Source of the DNA: a virus
Reading direction: 5' to 3' (one strand)
IMG/VR virus record: IMGVR_UViG_3300032462_001188
Span: 1-20,653 of that record
DNA length: 20,653 nucleotides
Shown here piece after piece: positions 3,143 to 11,515 of this stretch. The notes beneath the pieces are model-generated. The model was not told where the DNA came from. It saw only the letters and a list, made by a program, of their open reading frames with translations, and ran no database searches. The first letter of the stretch is position 1. The number at the start of each line of letters is the position of its first letter. A program made the position numbers and the translations under genes.

Positions 3143-3874
3143 TTAAACGTCTGACCTCTTCTTTTTCTTCTTCTTCTTTCTTGGAGCCTCATCTTCATCC
3201 TTTTCTTCGGCTTCTTTCTTGGAGGTCTTTAAGAAATCTTCTAAGTAAGAAACAGAGGTTTCATAAGAGGGTACTAATTCTCTTATCATGGCCTCTATAT
3301 CATAAGTTTTCTTCGAGTAGGGTGATGCTAACTTAGTTGGTCGGGCATCAAGAAGAGTATATTCTGTGTCCATCTGACCTGAACCTGTTCTCTTATACTT
3401 GATATCATAACCTGTCTTAGGGTCTGTAAAATCTCCCTTATCATCATCAAGGTAAAAGTCCAGTAGGGATTGATACATACCTTTGTGAAGTAGTGCTGGT
3501 TTTGCTCCTGCTTTCTCATCAATTGTTTTACCCTTATCATCTTCATACTTGATGTGAGCAACCATGAACTTCTGCTTAGGCCTCATTCGGTCTGCAAATT
3601 TTTGGTCGGATGCTTTCTTGGACTTCTTTAGTTTTTGCCAGTATTCATATAGGGCACATCGTTCTCCAAAGGTTGCGGCAGATATTACCCCTTTGACTTC
3701 GCCTCCAATATAGAAATGGGTTATCTCTAAAGCCCAATCTTTATTGGGTGGAGTAGGTAGGGGTCTCATTCGAGTAGTTCCTTCCTTAAAGATGAAGTAA
3801 TCATAGTTACCTCCTCCTTTCTTTAACTCCTCTTGCCTCTTCCTTAGTTTGGCTTTCAATTTATCGTTTGACAT
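3143..3874 (-). CDS. gp32-like single-stranded DNA-binding protein
   Basis: A 243-residue protein that I read as a T4 gp32-type SSB. It has a basic N-terminal helix (residues 1-20, like the gp32 cooperativity arm), then an OB-fold-like region. A remnant of the zinc site is visible: H53, A66, C73 and Y76 follow roughly the His-x12-Cys...Cys-x2-Cys layout of gp32, so only two of the four ligands remain. The C-terminus is odd. An acidic patch (about 216-230) is followed by a run of eight lysines and RSDV, instead of ending in the acidic tip usual for SSBs. It lies directly upstream of the recombinase. The family call is motif-level and distant. Confidence 0.65.
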   Translation of the reverse strand: MSNDKLKAKLRKRQEELKKGGGNYDYFIFKEGTTRMRPLPTPPNKDWALEITHFYIGGEVKGVISAATFGERCALYEYWQKLKKSKKASDQKFADRMRPKQKFMVAHIKYEDDKGKTIDEKAGAKPALLHKGMYQSLLDFYLDDDKGDFTDPKTGYDIKYKRTGSGQMDTEYTLLDARPTKLASPYSKKTYDIEAMIRELVPSYETSVSYLEDFLKTSKKEAEEKDEDEAPRKKKKKKKRSDV

Positions 3875-3889
3875 AGGTATTTGTGGTAT

Positions 3890-4363
3890 TTAGTTTCTTT
3901 CTTTACGTACATTTGAAGATAGGGTTTGGAGTAGATTTGATTTCAATTCCATTGACCTTACACATACCTCCAATATTGATATATTCGATTCTATTCGGGT
4001 AATCTCTCTTATGATTCTTTGGTACTTCTTATCCTGTTCAGCAGAGGCTGCGGCTAAATCCTTATTAGGGTATTTATTATTAGCTTTGTAGAATTTTGTG
4101 GTTCTACTCGATGAGTGGTGTAGAAACAATTTAGAATGGGTGCTTTTCTTACGTCTTTCTAGCTCCCTTAACTTCGCTAACATTCTTTTATGTAGCATTG
4201 ATATAAAACCATAACCTGCGGGCTGGGTTTTAACCATGTTGTTAATTTTATTCTCCACTATTTTTAATTCATTGCCAAGATGAAATTTAAAGACCTCCCC
4301 ATCAAGGGTAATCTCTACTTCCATTATGGACGAACTTTGCGAGTATTCAAATATCTTATTCAT
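3890..4363 (-). CDS. Possible UvsY-like recombination mediator
   Basis: A 157-residue mostly helical protein. After about 40 residues of beta-like sequence there is a Pro-Ala-Gly-Tyr turn (48-51), a basic helix (57-79), a Ser/Arg-rich loop with FYK and KYP (84-99), then LAAASAEQDKKY and a long final helix pair (105-150). That order resembles T4 UvsY (NP..Y, a basic helix, a Tyr-rich loop, then LSADKD and a terminal helix). T4 UvsY loads UvsX onto gp32-coated ssDNA. The position, immediately upstream of the SSB and recombinase genes, supports this role. The similarity is one of pattern rather than clear identity, and other helical DNA-binding proteins could look like this. Confidence 0.45.
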   Translation of the reverse strand: MNKIFEYSQSSSIMEVEITLDGEVFKFHLGNELKIVENKINNMVKTQPAGYGFISMLHKRMLAKLRELERRKKSTHSKLFLHHSSSRTTKFYKANNKYPNKDLAAASAEQDKKYQRIIREITRIESNISILEVCVRSMELKSNLLQTLSSNVRKERN

Positions 4364-4399: not shown

Positions 4400-5059
4400 T
4401 TATAAGAGGGAGGGTGTATTTCTTATAATACCTGCTTCTATATCTCCAATCATATTAGTTACCGCAGCTTTTCTTCGGTTCAAATCCCAAAAATCAAGAA
4501 TCAAAACTGCAGGACCGTCCGTAGCATTGGGTATAAAGTAGTTTTTAATCCAGTATTCAAATTGGGCATCAATAGATTTCTGATAGAACCTATTTGAAAC
4601 TCTACTACCGTTTACCTCTACTGCTTGGGGTTGAACTGCTTTCACATATACTACTAAATCCAAGTTCTCCCAGGCTTTTAAACAATCTTCCATAAACTCT
4701 TGGGTCATGGCATCTGTTACGTGAGGATGATAACCTACTTGATTAATAAAGTAGGTAAGATTATCAGCCGGAGAACGGTCGGTTACAAAATTATCATTCT
4801 CTCTTATAATCTGAGCCCTCCTCATTTGCAGGATTTTCTGATTCATTACTCCATATTCGGGATTCAAAGCCGAGTATCTTATTACTCCTACGTGGCCACC
4901 CCCTGGGTATCTGAACATTTCATCGAGTAACATTTTATCACCCTCTTGCTTAACGTCGCCAGCAGAGCCTGATATATGTTTTAAGTCTGTTACCTCGGAT
5001 ACAAATTCAACGAGCGTTGTTTTACCGGAACCGCTTGAGCCGGAAAATGCTATTTTCAT
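4400..5059 (-). CDS. Deoxynucleoside monophosphate kinase-like P-loop protein
   Basis: A 219-residue P-loop kinase. Walker A is GSSGSGKT at residues 7-14. A DRSP motif at 94-97 (FVTDRSPADNL) resembles the DR(S/H)xxD motif of thymidylate/dNMP kinases, where it contacts the substrate. LDLVVYVKA and VLILDFWDLNRR give the later core strands. Phage dNMP kinases such as T4 gp1 phosphorylate dTMP, dGMP and hydroxymethyl-dCMP. Here it would act after the dUTPase, TS-fold and deaminase enzymes further up the cluster. An alternative is a NadR-like AAA_28 ATPase of unknown substrate. The leader AACCCTAAATAAATAAACC is A-rich, with no Shine-Dalgarno. Confidence 0.6.
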   Translation of the reverse strand: MKIAFSGSSGSGKTTLVEFVSEVTDLKHISGSAGDVKQEGDKMLLDEMFRYPGGGHVGVIRYSALNPEYGVMNQKILQMRRAQIIRENDNFVTDRSPADNLTYFINQVGYHPHVTDAMTQEFMEDCLKAWENLDLVVYVKAVQPQAVEVNGSRVSNRFYQKSIDAQFEYWIKNYFIPNATDGPAVLILDFWDLNRRKAAVTNMIGDIEAGIIRNTPSLL

Positions 5060-5079: not shown

Positions 5080-5304
5080 TTAAAAGGGTAAGTCATCCTC
5101 AGATTTTTTTATGGCTCCAAGTTCTTCCATTTTATTCATAAGAGGTAATAGCTTTTTCTGTATTCTACGAAGGTACTTAGCGTGTTTTTCGGGTGGTAAT
5201 TTATCTATCAAGACTGCTACTTCCATTGTACCCTTTATTATTCTTTTATACCCCCTAAGAATATCTCTAGTCGCAGACTTAAGGGCCTCATCAAATTTGC
5301 TCAT
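5080..5304 (-). CDS. Small helical protein with an SSB-like C-terminal tip (DDLPF)
   Basis: A 74-residue basic, helical protein that I do not recognise as a family. Two or three amphipathic helices (about 3-33 and 38-63) are followed by a short acidic tail ending SEDDLPF at the stop codon. That ending closely matches the C-terminal tip of bacterial SSBs (E. coli ends DDDIPF), the peptide that binds SSB partners such as PriA, RecQ and exonuclease I. The protein has no OB-fold. Its ATG overlaps the stop of the upstream CYTH gene in an ATGA. It could recruit or titrate host SSB-binding enzymes; that role is inference. Confidence 0.6.
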   Translation of the reverse strand: MSKFDEALKSATRDILRGYKRIIKGTMEVAVLIDKLPPEKHAKYLRRIQKKLLPLMNKMEELGAIKKSEDDLPF

Positions 5305-5894
5305 TTGGATAGGGATTTATTTGTCCATTGTTTTTGGCCTGTGATATCTGCGGTAGAGAGCTTAGGCACTTTGGCTAGTTGCTTCTCATCATCTACCTCA
5401 ATCTCTCCGAGTAATAGGTATCTATCTACAAACCCATCATACTCGACATCAAAGCCTTTGATATTCTTTACCAGTCTTTTCTTATAGACTCTTGCCCCTT
5501 TGGTTTCCTTGAAATACTTCTTGAATACCTTAGGGTCTAGCTCCCATTCTACTTCTCTCTTCTTGGTTTCCTTTCTATCCTTAACGGTTAGAATACATTG
5601 GCTACCATACCTTCTGAAACGTATCGTGTTCGGTCTAAAGTCAAGTTCTATTCCAAGCTCTTCTAAGACTTCTCTTGCTCGAACCATATCAGTTATGTAG
5701 CCCTGCTCGATAGGAGTTCCCTTTTCAAGAACTTCGTTATATAACTTGGACCCACTCTGGTTCTTGGTAAAGTCCTCTTCAACTGATAGGATTAAAAATC
5801 TCTTCTCAATCTCAAAGCCTGCAAATATTTGTTTCATGGGTTTGAATTTGTTATCCGGCCCTACGAGAGGCCGAAATTCGGTTGGTTCACTCAT
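5301..5894 (-). CDS. CYTH-domain / triphosphate tunnel metalloenzyme-like protein
   Basis: A 197-residue protein with most of the CYTH pattern. It has EIEKRFL at 28-34 (the family ExExK box, but with K and R at positions 4-5), IEQGYITD at 62-69, RFRR at 92-95, LTVK at 102-105, KREVEWEL at 112-119, KKR at 138-140, then GEIEVDDE at 163-170 and a C-terminal ITGQKQWTNKSL. Known members hydrolyse inorganic or thiamine triphosphate, or cyclise ATP (class IV adenylate cyclase). The substrate cannot be read from the sequence. The first 24 residues look like an added tail. It lies between the MazG-like and small-protein genes, overlapping the latter by 4 nt. Confidence 0.75.
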   Translation of the reverse strand: MSEPTEFRPLVGPDNKFKPMKQIFAGFEIEKRFLILSVEEDFTKNQSGSKLYNEVLEKGTPIEQGYITDMVRAREVLEELGIELDFRPNTIRFRRYGSQCILTVKDRKETKKREVEWELDPKVFKKYFKETKGARVYKKRLVKNIKGFDVEYDGFVDRYLLLGEIEVDDEKQLAKVPKLSTADITGQKQWTNKSLSK

Positions 5895-5897
5895 CTT

Positions 5898-6329
5898 TTA
5901 TTCAGGTTTACAAAATTTCTCATTTAATACATCGAACATTATAGGGTAGTTCCATTTCTCTGAGCTTTTAACAAAGCCCTCAATTAGGACGTGTTCAAAA
6001 TTCAAACCCGATTTATGGCAGATGTAAATTAGGTAGGAAACTACATCCCCTATTTCTCCTTCCAGGTTCTCTACTAATCTACCTCTATATAATTCCATAA
6101 TATTACTATGGGCCATATCCGGAAATTCATCCATTAGAGCCTTTATCTTTTCAGGCTTAATACCTCCAGGTTCATAGGACCTTAATATTTTCTTTACTGC
6201 CCCACAAACTTCTCCAGTTTCTTCTGCAAGGGCTGTTGTAAAATAAGATAAAGCCATGTTATTTAGTAGGCCGGGCATGACAACATTGCTCCTATCAATA
6301 GTTGCTTTTTCGAGTTCTGAGATATCCAT
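5898..6329 (-). CDS. MazG-like nucleotide pyrophosphohydrolase
   Basis: A 143-residue all-alpha NTP pyrophosphatase-type protein. The metal-binding pattern is EETGE (36-40) plus EIGDV (92-96), with E92 and D95 forming the second ExxD half; helices flank both. Family members cleave (d)NTPs to (d)NMPs. Phage MazG proteins are variously proposed to clean the nucleotide pool or lower (p)ppGpp. It follows the DNA polymerase gene across a 42-base gap and leads into the CYTH gene after 3 bases. The leader contains AAAACTAAATAAACATAAAT, a motif shared with other starts in the window. Confidence 0.75.
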   Translation of the reverse strand: MDISELEKATIDRSNVVMPGLLNNMALSYFTTALAEETGEVCGAVKKILRSYEPGGIKPEKIKALMDEFPDMAHSNIMELYRGRLVENLEGEIGDVVSYLIYICHKSGLNFEHVLIEGFVKSSEKWNYPIMFDVLNEKFCKPE

Positions 6330-6371: not shown

Positions 6372-8540
6372 TTATACCCATTTTTCGTATCTCTCCCAAG
6401 CATCATAATCTTTTAGTTCTCCCCAGTTTTTACCTACTTCCGTAGATACCTTCATCCTTACGCTCTTCATTTGAAACCCGAAATACTTTTCTGTGTCAGG
6501 GTTATTACAAATGTTGAGCATGATGGGTACTACTTTGTGTACGTCCTTGGGTTTTATAATATACCCGAGGGAATCATGTACTGTGTATACCTGCAAGAAG
6601 TCTTTGGGTAGATTTCCTTTTATTCTCTCCGAGTGTGCAACTACCGAAGAGAACTGTGTTAAGTCGGATGACCCGCCTTGTATAGGTGCGTTAACTGATT
6701 GGCGCATAGCCTCTAAATGGAAGCCCAATATACCTTCTTTCTTAGCCTCCATGAAGGTGTACATTGCATCCGGTAATCTTCTCCTCCTACCAAATACATT
6801 TGAAACATATCCATTCTTTCGGGCAAAAGCATGTTGGGCTTTAATCCATTTAGTTACCTGAGGGTATGACTCAAACCAGGTATTCATAAATTCTTTTGCC
6901 TCTTCGATTGATACTCCTAATTGTTGGGCAAGTTTGTATTCTGTTTCTCCGTAAAGAATACCGAAGTTAATAGTCTTGGCAAATTTCTTTTGAGTTTCCC
7001 AAAAATAGTTGTCGGGGTGATTCTCATCCTTTAGAATAGATTTGACTTTGTTATAGAGGTCTATTCCACCATTGATTTTACAGGCCGTAGCCACGTGAAT
7101 GTTGTAATCTCTTTGGAATATCTCAATCATTGCAATATCCTGCGCCATCTCTGCTACTAATCGAAGCTCTGCCTGTGAATAATCGAACTCAATTAGTAAG
7201 TAACCCGGAGGAGGTATAAACATTTTCTTGATGTCGGCAGCAGTAGTTCCTCTAGGTATGTTCTGCAGGTTGGGGTCCTTTGAAGATAGACGGCCTGTTA
7301 CTGTTCCATGTACTAAAAAATTACCATAGATTATATTGTCCTGGGTTCTTCTGTTTAACATACCCTGGACATAGGTAGAGTTCAATTGCTTAAGACTCCT
7401 GCTCTTCATGAGTAATTCCATGAAGCCTGATTTATCTGTAATCTGTAATTGTAATAGTACCTCTTCATCTACTGAGGCTCTATCGGAAGTTACCTTAGTC
7501 TGTTTGTTCTTTGTGTACTTAATAACATCAAGATTAAGGCCCTTGCGACTGAAGAATAAGAAGTCAGCTAATTGGACCGTGCTGCCGAAGTTTATCGGTT
7601 CTAATCTCTCTCTGTCTTTCTTGGTAGTTATATTACCTGCTATGTATTGGTTTAGTTTCTTCTCAGCATTCAAAGCTACTCGGTCATTACCTGATTCTTT
7701 TGCTACCTCTATCTTCTCCTCAATTTCTTTAAGTAGGGTTACAAGAACTTTTCTTTTTCGGGATTTCTCATATCTCAGGACTCTTGGAAATTTTCTTAGT
7801 TGAACCTCTACATCAGCTATTCGACCCACATAAGATTCAGACAATGCTTCTAAGTATGGGCCATCTACATTGATGCCTCTAAATTCTAAGTCATTCAATA
7901 CTTTTGTTCTGAGGGGTCCGGCTAAACTTCTGAATAATCTGTATAGGCCCAAGCTTTGTAGATTCTTCTCGAACCTTAGCATCAATCTCAGAGTTAAGTC
8001 TGTGTCAAGAGCATTACGTTCTGCTAGAGGTTGTAAAGGAATGTTGCCCCATCCATGTTGACGGGCTAATAGTTCTGTATCATCCTTGAAGCCTGCAAAT
8101 TCATCAAACATTACATTAACTGTATTGCCTAGGCCATGGGGTCTTTCTTCATCCAATAAGTGTTTAGCTAGCATGGCATCGAAATTTCTTCCGACCATCT
8201 CCCATCCATACTTCTTCCACCATTTACCCTCGAATGCCAGGTTCCAACCTATCTTGGTTATCTTCTCATTGATGATGAGATTCTCGGCTAAGTAATCAAG
8301 TATATTTATGTAGTCTTTGTTGAAGGGCGACTCACTATGCTTAAGGGGTATAACAATTGAATACCCTGGTTGGAAAGACATACCTATGATAGTGGGCCAA
8401 GATTCATCAGAGTGAAAAGGTTCGGCATTAGTTTCAAAGTCATGGCTAAAGTAACCTGTCTTTTTAGTATGTTTTACAGCCTCCTTAATTTCTGACCAGT
8501 GTTTGGCTATGATAAATTGATGGGTTGATTTAGACCGCAT
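6372..8540 (-). CDS. polA: Family A DNA polymerase with 3'-5' exonuclease domain
   Basis: A 722-residue PolA-type replicase: a DEDD exonuclease domain (about 1-190), thumb region (about 200-400) and palm/fingers (about 405-722). Motif A is EFDYSQAELR (D453). Motif B is KTINFGILYG with K522, F526 and Y530; Phe at the F762 position predicts discrimination against dideoxynucleotides. Motif C is VHDS (D656), with Ser replacing the usual Glu. The exonuclease keeps D34/E36 and D179, but has E104 at the ExoII Asp position and R175 where the ExoIII Tyr is expected. There is no 5' nuclease domain; a separate FEN gene supplies that. The start overlaps the dCMP deaminase gene by 11 nt. Confidence 0.95.
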   Translation of the reverse strand: MRSKSTHQFIIAKHWSEIKEAVKHTKKTGYFSHDFETNAEPFHSDESWPTIIGMSFQPGYSIVIPLKHSESPFNKDYINILDYLAENLIINEKITKIGWNLAFEGKWWKKYGWEMVGRNFDAMLAKHLLDEERPHGLGNTVNVMFDEFAGFKDDTELLARQHGWGNIPLQPLAERNALDTDLTLRLMLRFEKNLQSLGLYRLFRSLAGPLRTKVLNDLEFRGINVDGPYLEALSESYVGRIADVEVQLRKFPRVLRYEKSRKRKVLVTLLKEIEEKIEVAKESGNDRVALNAEKKLNQYIAGNITTKKDRERLEPINFGSTVQLADFLFFSRKGLNLDVIKYTKNKQTKVTSDRASVDEEVLLQLQITDKSGFMELLMKSRSLKQLNSTYVQGMLNRRTQDNIIYGNFLVHGTVTGRLSSKDPNLQNIPRGTTAADIKKMFIPPPGYLLIEFDYSQAELRLVAEMAQDIAMIEIFQRDYNIHVATACKINGGIDLYNKVKSILKDENHPDNYFWETQKKFAKTINFGILYGETEYKLAQQLGVSIEEAKEFMNTWFESYPQVTKWIKAQHAFARKNGYVSNVFGRRRRLPDAMYTFMEAKKEGILGFHLEAMRQSVNAPIQGGSSDLTQFSSVVAHSERIKGNLPKDFLQVYTVHDSLGYIIKPKDVHKVVPIMLNICNNPDTEKYFGFQMKSVRMKVSTEVGKNWGELKDYDAWERYEKWV

Positions 8541-8964
8541 AGTACCTCCTTACCTTAATATCTCTACCTATTAAAAAGTCTACCCCATCCTTTAATCTAT
8601 ATGGGTGTTCATATACTACCTCCTTAATTCGAGCCTCATGGATTATGTGGGCACAATCAAGACAAGGGGCATGAGTCACATATAGGGTTAGGGGTAAATT
8701 AAATTCATCTACTCCTAGGTATTTACGTAGGAACTGGATTGCATTTGATTCTGCGTGTGTGGCTATTGTGCAGGGTTTATCCACGTCACATATTTCGGTG
8801 CAGGGCTTTTCATTGGGTGCAGGTTGTCCATTATAACCCGATGATACAATTCTACCCTCATAGGTTATAATACAACCAACGTTCAACCTTTTGCAAGTTG
8901 AACGTTGGCCCATCAATTTGGCAATTTCCATTGAGGTTATATCTCTCTTATTACTTTGGGCCAT
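8530..8964 (-). CDS. dCMP deaminase
   Basis: A 144-residue zinc-dependent deoxycytidylate deaminase (dCMP to dUMP). HAES at 70-73 holds the zinc His and catalytic Glu72, and APCLDC at 99-104 gives the two zinc cysteines C101 and C104. RSTC..LNVG (21-30) and SGYNGQP (42-48) match the substrate-binding motifs. Extra cysteines C55, C59 and C65 could form a second metal site, as in T4 dCMP deaminase. It overlaps the upstream TS-like gene by 14 nt. A promoter-like element starts 27 nt upstream of its ATG. A perfect 12-bp inverted repeat lies in codons 19-30. Confidence 0.93.
   Translation of the reverse strand: MAQSNKRDITSMEIAKLMGQRSTCKRLNVGCIITYEGRIVSSGYNGQPAPNEKPCTEICDVDKPCTIATHAESNAIQFLRKYLGVDEFNLPLTLYVTHAPCLDCAHIIHEARIKEVVYEHPYRLKDGVDFLIGRDIKVRRYYAV
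8876..8908. repeat. Perfect 12-bp inverted repeat inside the dCMP deaminase gene
   Basis: CCAACGTTCAAC (8876-8887) and GTTGAACGTTGG (8897-8908) are exact reverse complements with a 9-base spacer. The stem would form early in the deaminase mRNA, about 57 nt into the coding sequence. It overlaps codons for the conserved RSTC...VG motif, so coincidence cannot be excluded. Confidence 0.8.
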
Positions 8965-9727
8965 GGTTTTTTAGTTTTCCTATTTCTATGTCAAAGATAT
9001 GCAAATTAGATATAAACATACAAAATTCTCCCAACAATAATTCGGGTATACTCACTTGGGTTCTAACCCATTCTGCGAGTCTTACCGCTAAATATATATC
9101 ATCCCTAAAGTGTCTGAGGTAGTCACATGAACGAATATGATAATTGAGGTTCAAACGTCCATTTCTGATGATGAAATGGTAGCCTATAGTGCAGGGAATC
9201 CTCCCTTTGTGAGAAGCACCTGTATCCTCGGGAAAGAATACTGGGAGGTAGGCCTGTCTTGTATGTGGTTCTCTCTTAATTAACTCGACCACCGAGTTTA
9301 AATCCCCGTAGTCGTATCGAATACCTCGGTTGGGGAATACTTCTGAGGTTTGTCCGGCATGCTTGGGCCAGAATCTTTCCATGTACGTGTGACTAAACTT
9401 TTCAGCTTGTGTGCGAATTTGATTATCTCTTCCATAGAAAGGCCAGTGTTTATATGACTCTCCTGGGTTGAGGGGTTTTCCTGAAATTCTTTCATCGAAG
9501 TGTATATTAGCCCAGGGGCAATTAGGTTGTATTTGTCCTACCAGATTAACTAAACTATTATCAGTAGGCATGGGTGCAGATATAACTATGTTGTTTATCT
9601 CATAGAAATCTCTTGGAGGTTTAATACCCTGCCATGATTCTGTTGCAACTATTGAACCCTTTATTCTTAGTTGTTCTTCTACTTCGGCTATCGCATCACG
9701 TAGGGTGTTCTCTCTTATGGCAATCAT
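8951..9727 (-). CDS. Thymidylate synthase-fold enzyme, possible dCMP hydroxymethylase
   Basis: A 258-residue TS-superfamily protein. Landmarks aligned to E. coli ThyA are: the REPHTRQAY segment (152-160) at the phosphate-binding Arg pair; catalytic C179 in RIPC; the FIIRNGRL strand (185-192); IRSCD (198-202, ThyA R166-D169); and NLHIF (241-245) at the ThyA HLY motif. Counting from the RSCD motif, the position of dUMP-specifying N177 is D210 (in RDDI). An Asp there marks T4 dCMP hydroxymethylase (D179) and engineered dCMP-using TS. The protein may therefore act on dCMP, making methyl- or hydroxymethyl-dCMP, rather than dTMP from dUMP. The ATG overlaps the upstream TS-like gene in an ATGA. Confidence 0.8.
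   Translation of the reverse strand: MIAIRENTLRDAIAEVEEQLRIKGSIVATESWQGIKPPRDFYEINNIVISAPMPTDNSLVNLVGQIQPNCPWANIHFDERISGKPLNPGESYKHWPFYGRDNQIRTQAEKFSHTYMERFWPKHAGQTSEVFPNRGIRYDYGDLNSVVELIKREPHTRQAYLPVFFPEDTGASHKGRIPCTIGYHFIIRNGRLNLNYHIRSCDYLRHFRDDIYLAVRLAEWVRTQVSIPELLLGEFCMFISNLHIFDIEIGKLKNHGPK
8992..9025 (-). promoter_or_regulatory. Bacteroidota-type promoter before the dCMP deaminase gene
   Basis: On the minus strand TTTTG (9021-9025) is followed after exactly 21 bases by TATCTTTG (8992-8999), fitting the Bacteroidota TTTG / TAnnTTTG consensus. It sits in the 3' end of the TS-like gene, with the -7 element 27 nt from the deaminase ATG. It could give separate transcription of deaminase and DNA polymerase. 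Confidence 0.55.
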
Positions 9728-10716
9728 TTCTTGACTTTCTTTTTCTTCTTCTTTTTAGGCAACTCATTTACTACCTCTACTTTTTTAGTTCGAGTGTTTA
9801 TTGAGTTCTCTTTTCTATACTTGGCCCTTTCTTTAGGTGATACCATGCCATCAGGGTATATAGATTCGGGAAATAGAATAAGTTGTTTAGCCTTCAAGGA
9901 CTTAACCCCTGACACAGGCCATCCATTTTCATCTTTCTGTAATTGCATTGCCGACCTTAAGAAAGTCTTGAAGGTCATCTTCAATGCCTCAGGTTTCTTG
10001 AATACTTTGAAAGTCTTTAATACCTTCTTTTGAAATCTACCCAGCTTTCCTTTATAGGGCCTCAATACTCTCTTAAGTTTTCGGTAGTTATCATACATAA
10101 TAACCGCTTCTGCTGCAATGTAGAATGAGGGTGCAATAAAATGAAGTTCTACTTGATGGTCGGGGCCATATACATATTCAACCATTCTCTCAACCATCAA
10201 GAAATCGAAGGCTAATCTCTTAGTTACCTCCGATACCCTAACTGTGAATACCACAATAGGTTTTGGGTTGTCAATTCTCTTGGTAAATATTAAAGAGATT
10301 AAACAATCCTTACCTGAACCGTGGTAGTTTTTAAAGTGGTATGAATAGTTATAGCTTTTCGCTTTCTTACCCTGACGCATATTAATCTCTGACTTCACTA
10401 AATCTAGGTAATCAACATCAAGGTAATTGTTCTTAAGACCTGACCATTTCTTATCAGAGTAGCCTAGGATATAACCGAAATCAAACTCGGGGTCCATTCT
10501 ACAATCTCTTACAATAACCATGTTATTGTAGGATAAAAATTCTGGCCCATAGATACCTCCTCCTCTAGCCCATATCTCTTTCTCTTCACAAAGTAGATAT
10601 TCATTTACTCCTGCCCAGGCTTCATGAAGGTTATCGAAGATAAGGGTTTTTGTGGAGTCTCTGTCTGTGACTTCGGGCTTAATAGCCCTCTTTTTGCCGG
10701 TTGAGATTCTTCTCAT
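9724..10716 (-). CDS. Divergent thymidylate synthase-fold paralogue with lysine-rich tail
   Basis: A 330-residue protein whose middle lines up almost without gaps with the neighbouring TS-like protein. KDC at 136-138 takes the place of the PC catalytic motif, RVSE (160-163) the place of RSCD, and D171 falls exactly at the N177/D210 position. The ThyA HLY motif is degraded (PSFY, 196-199). GGGIYGPEF (52-60) could correspond to the N-terminal TS loop. After about residue 210 comes a basic extension ending in seven lysines then VKK. It may be a modified-base enzyme, a regulatory or partner subunit for the adjacent enzyme, or catalytically dead. The TS-fold assignment is my alignment by eye. It overlaps the upstream dUTPase gene by 38 nt and the downstream TS-like gene by 4. 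Confidence 0.55.
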   Translation of the reverse strand: MRRISTGKKRAIKPEVTDRDSTKTLIFDNLHEAWAGVNEYLLCEEKEIWARGGGIYGPEFLSYNNMVIVRDCRMDPEFDFGYILGYSDKKWSGLKNNYLDVDYLDLVKSEINMRQGKKAKSYNYSYHFKNYHGSGKDCLISLIFTKRIDNPKPIVVFTVRVSEVTKRLAFDFLMVERMVEYVYGPDHQVELHFIAPSFYIAAEAVIMYDNYRKLKRVLRPYKGKLGRFQKKVLKTFKVFKKPEALKMTFKTFLRSAMQLQKDENGWPVSGVKSLKAKQLILFPESIYPDGMVSPKERAKYRKENSINTRTKKVEVVNELPKKKKKKKVKK

Positions 10717-11515
10717 GTTTGTTTATATAATTTTTAAGGGTTGACATTTCATTTACTCCGTACATATCCAGCAATTGCAGGTATGACATAAACCAAGTGC
10801 AGAGGCTTCTTCTTAAGTCAATCTCATTGATGGGTACTTCTTCTGCCCTCCAATATTTAGACTTCATCATGTTTAGTGACGTGTATAGGTTTTGTATTAC
10901 CTGAAAGTTTAAGCCATCCAAAACCGGTGAGGCTTCCTGGCTTAATCTTCTTCCAGCAACATTCAAATAACTATCATCTTCATGGGTTAAAGTTACATTT
11001 GTTCGGGTAATATTCAATTGATACGCACCCCATCTAATATTCTGTACCCTTGCTAGTTGCAACATTGAAGCCAGTAGATTGTCCTCTATCCAATAACCCG
11101 AGGCTTTGTATTCATCTCCTAGTTCATCCACAAACTGATGTTCTATATACCTCTCCAATTCACTTACTCTTACCCCTGCATATATCAATAGCTCTAGGGC
11201 AAAACAAAAAGTGTCGGCTATTTCTTCATTGAATCCATCGAGTTTAGTTAAAAATTCGGGAGTTGTTGTAAAGCCTCTTTCATGTCTAAGCTCTACTAAT
11301 TCTGCTAGGGCTATTCGAGCCTCGACTAATTCCTCTACATAAAAACCTGAGAGCTCTCTGAAAAAGGATTGGGATTCTTTTGTTTCGAGGTGTAAAGCTA
11401 CGGTTTCAATTACAGGTAATTGGCTTTTTGATATTAGGAGTTCTATAAACTCATGCTGCTTTCGATACATAAGTTCAAACCCATTGCCATCGAATATTTC
11501 TAGTTGTTCTTCCAT
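10679..11515 (-). CDS. Dimeric dUTPase/dCTPase (all-alpha NTP pyrophosphatase)
   Basis: A 278-residue enzyme of the dimeric dUTPase family, which includes T4 gp56 dCTPase-dUTPase. Metal ligands are in EELVEA (E61, E62, E65) and NEEIAD (E97, E98, D101), flanked by long helices. The C-terminus YINKHEKNLNRQKEGY matches the family's closing motif (YxxKNxLNxxRQxxGY). It would cleave dUTP and/or dCTP to the monophosphates, feeding the TS-fold enzymes and dCMP deaminase directly downstream. The substrate choice cannot be read by eye. If it uses dCTP, it would deplete normal dCTP, as in T4. The start overlaps the upstream gene's stop by one base (TAATG). Confidence 0.78.
   Translation of the reverse strand: MEEQLEIFDGNGFELMYRKQHEFIELLISKSQLPVIETVALHLETKESQSFFRELSGFYVEELVEARIALAELVELRHERGFTTTPEFLTKLDGFNEEIADTFCFALELLIYAGVRVSELERYIEHQFVDELGDEYKASGYWIEDNLLASMLQLARVQNIRWGAYQLNITRTNVTLTHEDDSYLNVAGRRLSQEASPVLDGLNFQVIQNLYTSLNMMKSKYWRAEEVPINEIDLRRSLCTWFMSYLQLLDMYGVNEMSTLKNYINKHEKNLNRQKEGY

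Follow-up and report, generated by a model that had tools for sequence, protein, structure and literature searches.

A central question at this locus is the role of two adjacent genes of the thymidylate synthase (TS) fold; namely, whether they supply thymidylate, form one heteromeric enzyme or act separately on cytosine nucleotides. We analysed a 20.7-kb virus record (IMGVR_UViG_3300032462_001188, referred to here as the window), with a GC content of approximately 38% and no tRNA genes. The ends given for the two open reading frames (ORFs) in the initial annotation are correct, and their 4-nt overlap at 9724–9727 is confirmed; the strand was absent from that annotation. Translation of 8951–9727 and 9724–10716 on the plus strand yields many stops, and the ORFs are real on the minus strand, which carries nearly all genes of the window. 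The transcription order is DnaB-like helicase, primase-like protein (labelled from its position, without Pfam support), ResIII helicase, dCTPase/dUTPase-like protein, P0002, P0001, dCMP deaminase, DNA polymerase I (Pol I), MazG-like protein and P-loop kinase, followed by gp32-like and RecA-like proteins. The features considered here are:

10679..11515, minus strand: all-alpha dCTPase/dUTPase-like pyrophosphohydrolase (PF08761, C-terminal part)
9724..10716, minus strand: P0002, 330 aa, divergent TS-fold protein (phrog_34294, E = 1e-6; hhalign; AlphaFold pLDDT 89.4)
10423..10425, minus strand: P0002 Tyr98 codon (94/94 relatives)
10303..10305, minus strand: P0002 Cys138 codon (94/94 relatives)
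10237..10239, minus strand: P0002 Arg160 codon (94/94 relatives)
10204..10206, minus strand: P0002 Asp171 codon (93/94 relatives, Glu in one)
8951..9727, minus strand: P0001, 258 aa, TS-superfamily enzyme (PF00303, E = 7e-8; phrog_160, E = 7e-27; AlphaFold pLDDT 92.8)
9191..9193, minus strand: P0001 Cys179 codon, the nucleophile (conservation and profile alignment)
9098..9100, minus strand: P0001 Asp210 codon, the base-specifying position (profile alignment)
8530..8964, minus strand: dCMP deaminase, overlapping the end of P0001 (PF00383, phrog_174)
6372..8540, minus strand: family A DNA polymerase with 3'-5' exonuclease (Pfam)
5898..6329, minus strand: MazG-like nucleotide pyrophosphohydrolase (Pfam)
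4400..5059, minus strand: P-loop (d)NMP/deoxynucleoside kinase-like protein (PF01712, PF13521)

Both the T4 gp56 dCTPase/dUTPase and the product of the gene preceding P0002 match PF08761 over the same C-terminal portion. An ORF at 5301–5894 has phrog_6660 (of unknown function) as its sole match and may encode a CYTH-like protein; in a related locus (L158), the region from Pol I to the kinase contains a gene whose match falls slightly short of the PF01928 (CYTH) cut-off.

P0001 is a further member of a kind that is already known. It scores over the cut-off for PF00303, and its AlphaFold model (pLDDT 92.8) has the TS fold, matching AfhB, TS and MilA structures at Z = 19–20 (AfhB at 20.0, with other TS structures within about 1 Z). 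The motifs read from the sequence by the initial annotation are all present (C179, R199-S-C-D202, H243-I-F and D210). Profile alignment pairs C179, R199, D202, D210, Y115, R157 and H243 with ThyA C146, R166, D169, N177, Y94, R126 and H207, with corresponding residues in T4; each is invariant in 126/126 distinct relatives, and S200 is kept in 123/126. The catalytic Cys, phosphate Arg/Ser, Tyr94 and His207 of the superfamily are therefore represented. The asparagine at position 177 of canonical dUMP thymidylate synthases is replaced by Asp in all 126 relatives, and D210 aligns with N177 of ThyA, D179 of T4 gp42 and the equivalent Asp of AfhB, as had been proposed.

A close described counterpart is the T4 gp42 dCMP hydroxymethylase, with which P0001 shares its PHROG (phrog_160, also that of an AfhB-like protein), the catalytic Cys, the Arg-Ser pair, the pterin Asp and an FR(N/D)D motif in which the base-specifying position is Asp, as well as dCTPase/dUTPase, dCMP deaminase and kinase neighbours. 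Asp179, Cys148 and the pterin Asp171 of gp42 correspond to D210, C179 and D202. Phrog_160 scores ahead of phrog_3676, the best PHROG of an Ackermannviridae TS-like protein in which the aligned position is not Asp. However, P0001 is very divergent from gp42, has a partner gene in P0002 and carries Gln in place of the second trans arginine, a position occupied by Gln or Lys in almost every relative. It also lacks a clear counterpart of Glu60 (Glu58 in ThyA): the aligned column is not Glu, in an N-terminal region where the alignment is weak and residues were mapped by profile alignment rather than superposed coordinates, and the folate step could thus differ. The top PDB sequence match of P0001 is the CMP 5-hydroxymethylase MilA, likewise an Asp-type member of the superfamily, although MilA is a larger protein of secondary metabolism with a ribonucleotide substrate. 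Replacement of Asn177 by Asp turns TS towards dCMP (established work cited in PMC8670742). On these sequence features, P0001 is most likely a dCMP C5-(hydroxy)methylase.

P0002 is, on its modelled structure, a new variant: a TS-fold family in which the Cys/Arg/Asp site is retained and the folate site is gone. The residues noted previously (C138, R160-V-S-E163 and D171) are present. The protein matched no Pfam family even at E = 1, PF00303 included, and had one weak PHROG match, to phrog_34294 (E = 1e-6, unknown function); relatives also match phrog_13667. These two PHROGs contain P0002 and its relatives, such as gp47 of phage Muddy, and have no assigned function. A P0002 sequence profile matched no TS structure in the PDB, so the link to TS comes only from profile–profile and fold comparison. 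Using hhalign, the P0002 family matched the TS family of P0001 with P = 7.6e-5 and a probability of 62%, compared with P = 0.3–0.5 and probabilities of 0.1–0.2% for three control families, and a P0002-family profile built without any TS reached TS ORFs at E of approximately 6e-4. The AlphaFold model (pLDDT 89.4, pTM 0.84) has top PDB matches that all belong to the TS superfamily (Z of approximately 10–14.7); the best solved match is AfhB (Z = 14.7, rmsd 3.6 over 180 residues), and further matches include MilA (Z = 11–13) and TS (Z of approximately 10–11). Together, the profile alignment and the model place P0002 in the TS fold, as suspected from the sequence.

Among 94 relatives, with identities down to approximately 13%, the only columns conserved in at least 97% are Y98, C138, R160 and D171. 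Of these, hhalign pairs C138 with C179, R160 with R199 and D171 with D210, which correspond to the TS nucleophile, the phosphate-binding arginine and the base-specifying position. The proposed Asp at the N177 position is thus upheld for P0002 as well (D171 in 93/94). An alignment of the two proteins described earlier as nearly gapless holds for this Cys-Arg-Asp core, where a 2-residue gap separates Cys and Arg, but not elsewhere. Approximately 60 residues of P0001 (about 81–142, containing N87, P88, W95, Y115 and R118) have no counterpart in P0002, a reading that rests on aligned secondary structure rather than superposed coordinates, and C-terminal helices have been added, within which R254 is nearly invariant. 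The position of the pterin Asp (Asp169 in ThyA) is E or Y (163), and there is no conserved His for H207; the small-domain segment with Trp80 and Tyr94 is likewise missing. This pattern indicates that the nucleotide site has been kept and the folate site has not, which makes ordinary folate chemistry unlikely for P0002. The lysine tail is present in this member and is peculiar to it, rather than a family feature. Its codons form a purine-rich run (9728–9752) shortly before the start of P0001, and the tail may therefore have more to do with ribosome binding than with protein function.

Relatives of P0002 were identified first from their position ahead of P0001-type genes and afterwards, without reference to that position, from an alignment of their own. 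Queried in this way, the family occurred in 65 viral contigs or loci and one bacterial bin; a single-sequence scan of viral contigs with P0002 gave no match. A P0001-type gene lies in the fetched stretch for 86 of 90 distinct P0002-type loci, with the exact 4-nt overlap in 21 of the 86. Conversely, 43 of 74 distinct P0001-type loci (first set) have no P0002. When P0001 types paired with P0002 were compared position by position with those lacking it, lineage differences emerged but no active-site switch. The cassette occurs in eight isolated phages (Muddy, Gibbous, PMBT14, Serbin, Polewnik, KimJongPhill, Shrew and Yersinia P744), in the order kinase, dUTPase/MazG, P0002-type protein, TS, usually dCMP deaminase, and Pol I. 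Relatives of Muddy gp47, a P0002-type protein, are found in 85 actinophage records, 68 of them from Gordonia phages, and the counts of P0002-type genes for Gordonia, Mycobacterium and Streptomyces equal those of P0001-type genes. The products are mostly labelled 'hypothetical protein', and 'pyrimidine hmase synthase' in two records. The pair does not appear in the literature that we found on PMBT14, P744, CUB19, Muddy or paired TS-like proteins.

Several loci depart from the simple arrangement. Three human gut phages (L082, L083 and L084) and a Dysosmobacter bin (L166) have two consecutive P0002-type genes before a divergent P0001-type gene, and in the gut phages both copies keep the Cys, Arg and Asp. 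In L036 (6806–7486), L064 (7041–7577) and PMBT14 (L085; 4855–5403), the interval from the P0001-type gene to the deaminase holds a second P0002-like ORF of shorter length; in PMBT14 this ORF overlaps the annotated dCMP deaminase gene in another frame. In 20 related loci without P0002 (including L021, L035 and L061), an IMPDH/GMP-reductase-like gene is directly upstream of the P0001-type gene, and an asparagine-synthase-like amidotransferase occupies this place in up to three others. The genes upstream of P0001 relatives that have no P0002 (IMPDH, asparagine-synthase-like, PhoH and C5-methyltransferase) were considered as P0002 relatives and rejected, being unrelated to it.

The initial annotation suggested that the two proteins could form a heteromer. 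P0002 might then be a dedicated partner subunit that regulates or completes the enzyme in a P0001/P0002 heterodimer, with a shared TS-type interface supplying Arg157 of P0001 to the P0002 site. The 4-nt overlaps suggest coupled translation, the linkage is close and 1:1, and the trans arginine is conserved in 126/126 P0001 relatives and has no conserved counterpart in P0002. However, three loci (L110, L137 and L158) encode P0002 with all four conserved residues and no P0001-type gene, which argues against an obligate heterodimer and implies that P0002 need not act on a P0001 product. Gene order around P0002 is otherwise unchanged in L137 and L158, and the 61-kb L158 record has no TS or ThyX match anywhere; as the records may be fragments, the absence of P0001 from these loci is no proof. 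Furthermore, similar P0002 types adjoin divergent P0001 types, the two proteins show no co-divergence beyond the polymerase background (partial r = 0.03, 77 loci), and no P0001–P0002 fusion ORF occurs among the distinct P0002-type loci. The P0002-only loci and the lack of excess co-divergence weaken the obligate heteromer, and we consider a dedicated partner subunit unlikely. We favour two enzymes in one pathway, although coupled translation would be compatible with a complex as well. Where P0001 is missing from L137, an orphan 191-aa ORF (3331–3906) lies between P0002 and the deaminase; judged by eye, its strand-turn-strand-helix recalls TS without the Cys, Arg or Asp.

AfhB, the flavin-dependent dCMP 5-hydroxylase of phage HY126 (Mosigvirus; 9iqu and 9iqc), raises another alternative, in which P0002 (or P0001) would be a similar hydroxylase and the DNA would contain 5-hydroxycytosine. 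It has a compact TS fold with the same Cys, Arg and Asp, both models match it better than any other solved structure, and in both AfhB and P0002 the pterin Asp is missing. However, no connection between P0002 and AfhB emerges from sequence profiles, and P0002 has a shorter middle, in which the stretch of approximately 50 residues before the AfhB catalytic core is missing, and its own C-terminal helices. For P0001, the narrow margin of AfhB over other TS structures counts against this identity, as does the pterin Asp, which is retained in 126/126 relatives, as in T4 gp42 and ThyA, and is Asn in AfhB and the AfhB-like Mosigvirus protein. An AfhB-type activity is accordingly rather improbable for either protein. 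Least probable is ordinary thymidylate synthesis, in which P0001 would make dTMP and P0002 would be an accessory or decaying duplicate: public annotations name P0001 homologues thymidylate synthase and the dCMP deaminase and dUTPase could feed dUMP, but position 177 is Asp throughout the P0001 relatives, 8 of the 27 records carrying the pair have a separate ThyX (7) or full-length canonical Asn177 TS (1), which implies that the P0001-type enzyme is not simply their dTMP source, and the selective conservation of the P0002 Cys, Arg and Asp contradicts decay.

We therefore lean towards a phage cassette for cytosine-nucleotide modification in which P0001 would be the dCMP one-carbon enzyme and P0002 a second enzyme that does not use folate. 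The cassette, the gp42 PHROG and the Asp in both proteins fit the cytosine-modification setting that was initially proposed. The surrounding dCTPase/dUTPase, kinase, dCMP deaminase and Pol I resemble the T4 toolkit for replacing dC. In the MetaGPA analysis (PMC8670742), contigs with modified cytosine were enriched for Asp177-type TS, accompanied by PF00383 deaminase and PF01503 domains; the carbamoyltransferase that is a partner in MetaGPA is absent from the 27 records with the pair. Counting against the pathway, Asp at position 177 also occurs in AfhB, which is a hydroxylase rather than a hydroxymethylase and heads the structural matches of P0001 and P0002 alike. From the predicted fold, the residues, the gene linkage and the cassette, all of which are observed, we infer the substrates, the reactions and modified cytosine in virions.

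In the proposed cytosine-modification pathway, the dCTPase/dUTPase neighbour would remove dCTP and supply dCMP, and a dCMP-specific P0001 would add a folate-derived one-carbon unit at C5, giving 5-hydroxymethyl-dCMP or 5-methyl-dCMP. P0002 would bind a cytosine nucleotide through the same Cys/Arg/Asp site and carry out a second step on that nucleotide or on the P0001 product; given the loss of its folate site, this step would be non-folate. Phosphorylation of the modified dCMP to its triphosphate would fall to the kinase together with host enzymes, and incorporation into DNA to Pol I; dTMP would continue to be provided, via dUMP, by the dCMP deaminase. P0002 is thus most likely a separate cytosine-nucleotide enzyme. 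More tentatively, and with low expectation, P0002 may found a widespread folate-free TS-fold family in which a Cys-C6 adduct leads to an exocyclic-methylene intermediate and a different group is attached at C5 of a cytosine nucleotide; this substrate might be the 5-hydroxymethyl-dCMP that P0001 would produce. This chemistry would imply nucleotide-level cytosine hypermodification in therapeutic phages such as Muddy.

The recurring pair suggests an undescribed enzyme in the making of modified cytosine for viral DNA. If so, a 'hypothetical' gene of Muddy, of 68 Gordonia phages and of many environmental phages would encode a further TS-fold enzyme that takes part in modifying cytosine. Modified DNA would be predicted in phages whose modification state goes unreported in the literature that we found, and would offer them a route around restriction and CRISPR. 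The pair also makes testable the question of what chemistry a TS fold performs when its Cys/Arg/Asp site is kept and its folate site is gone.
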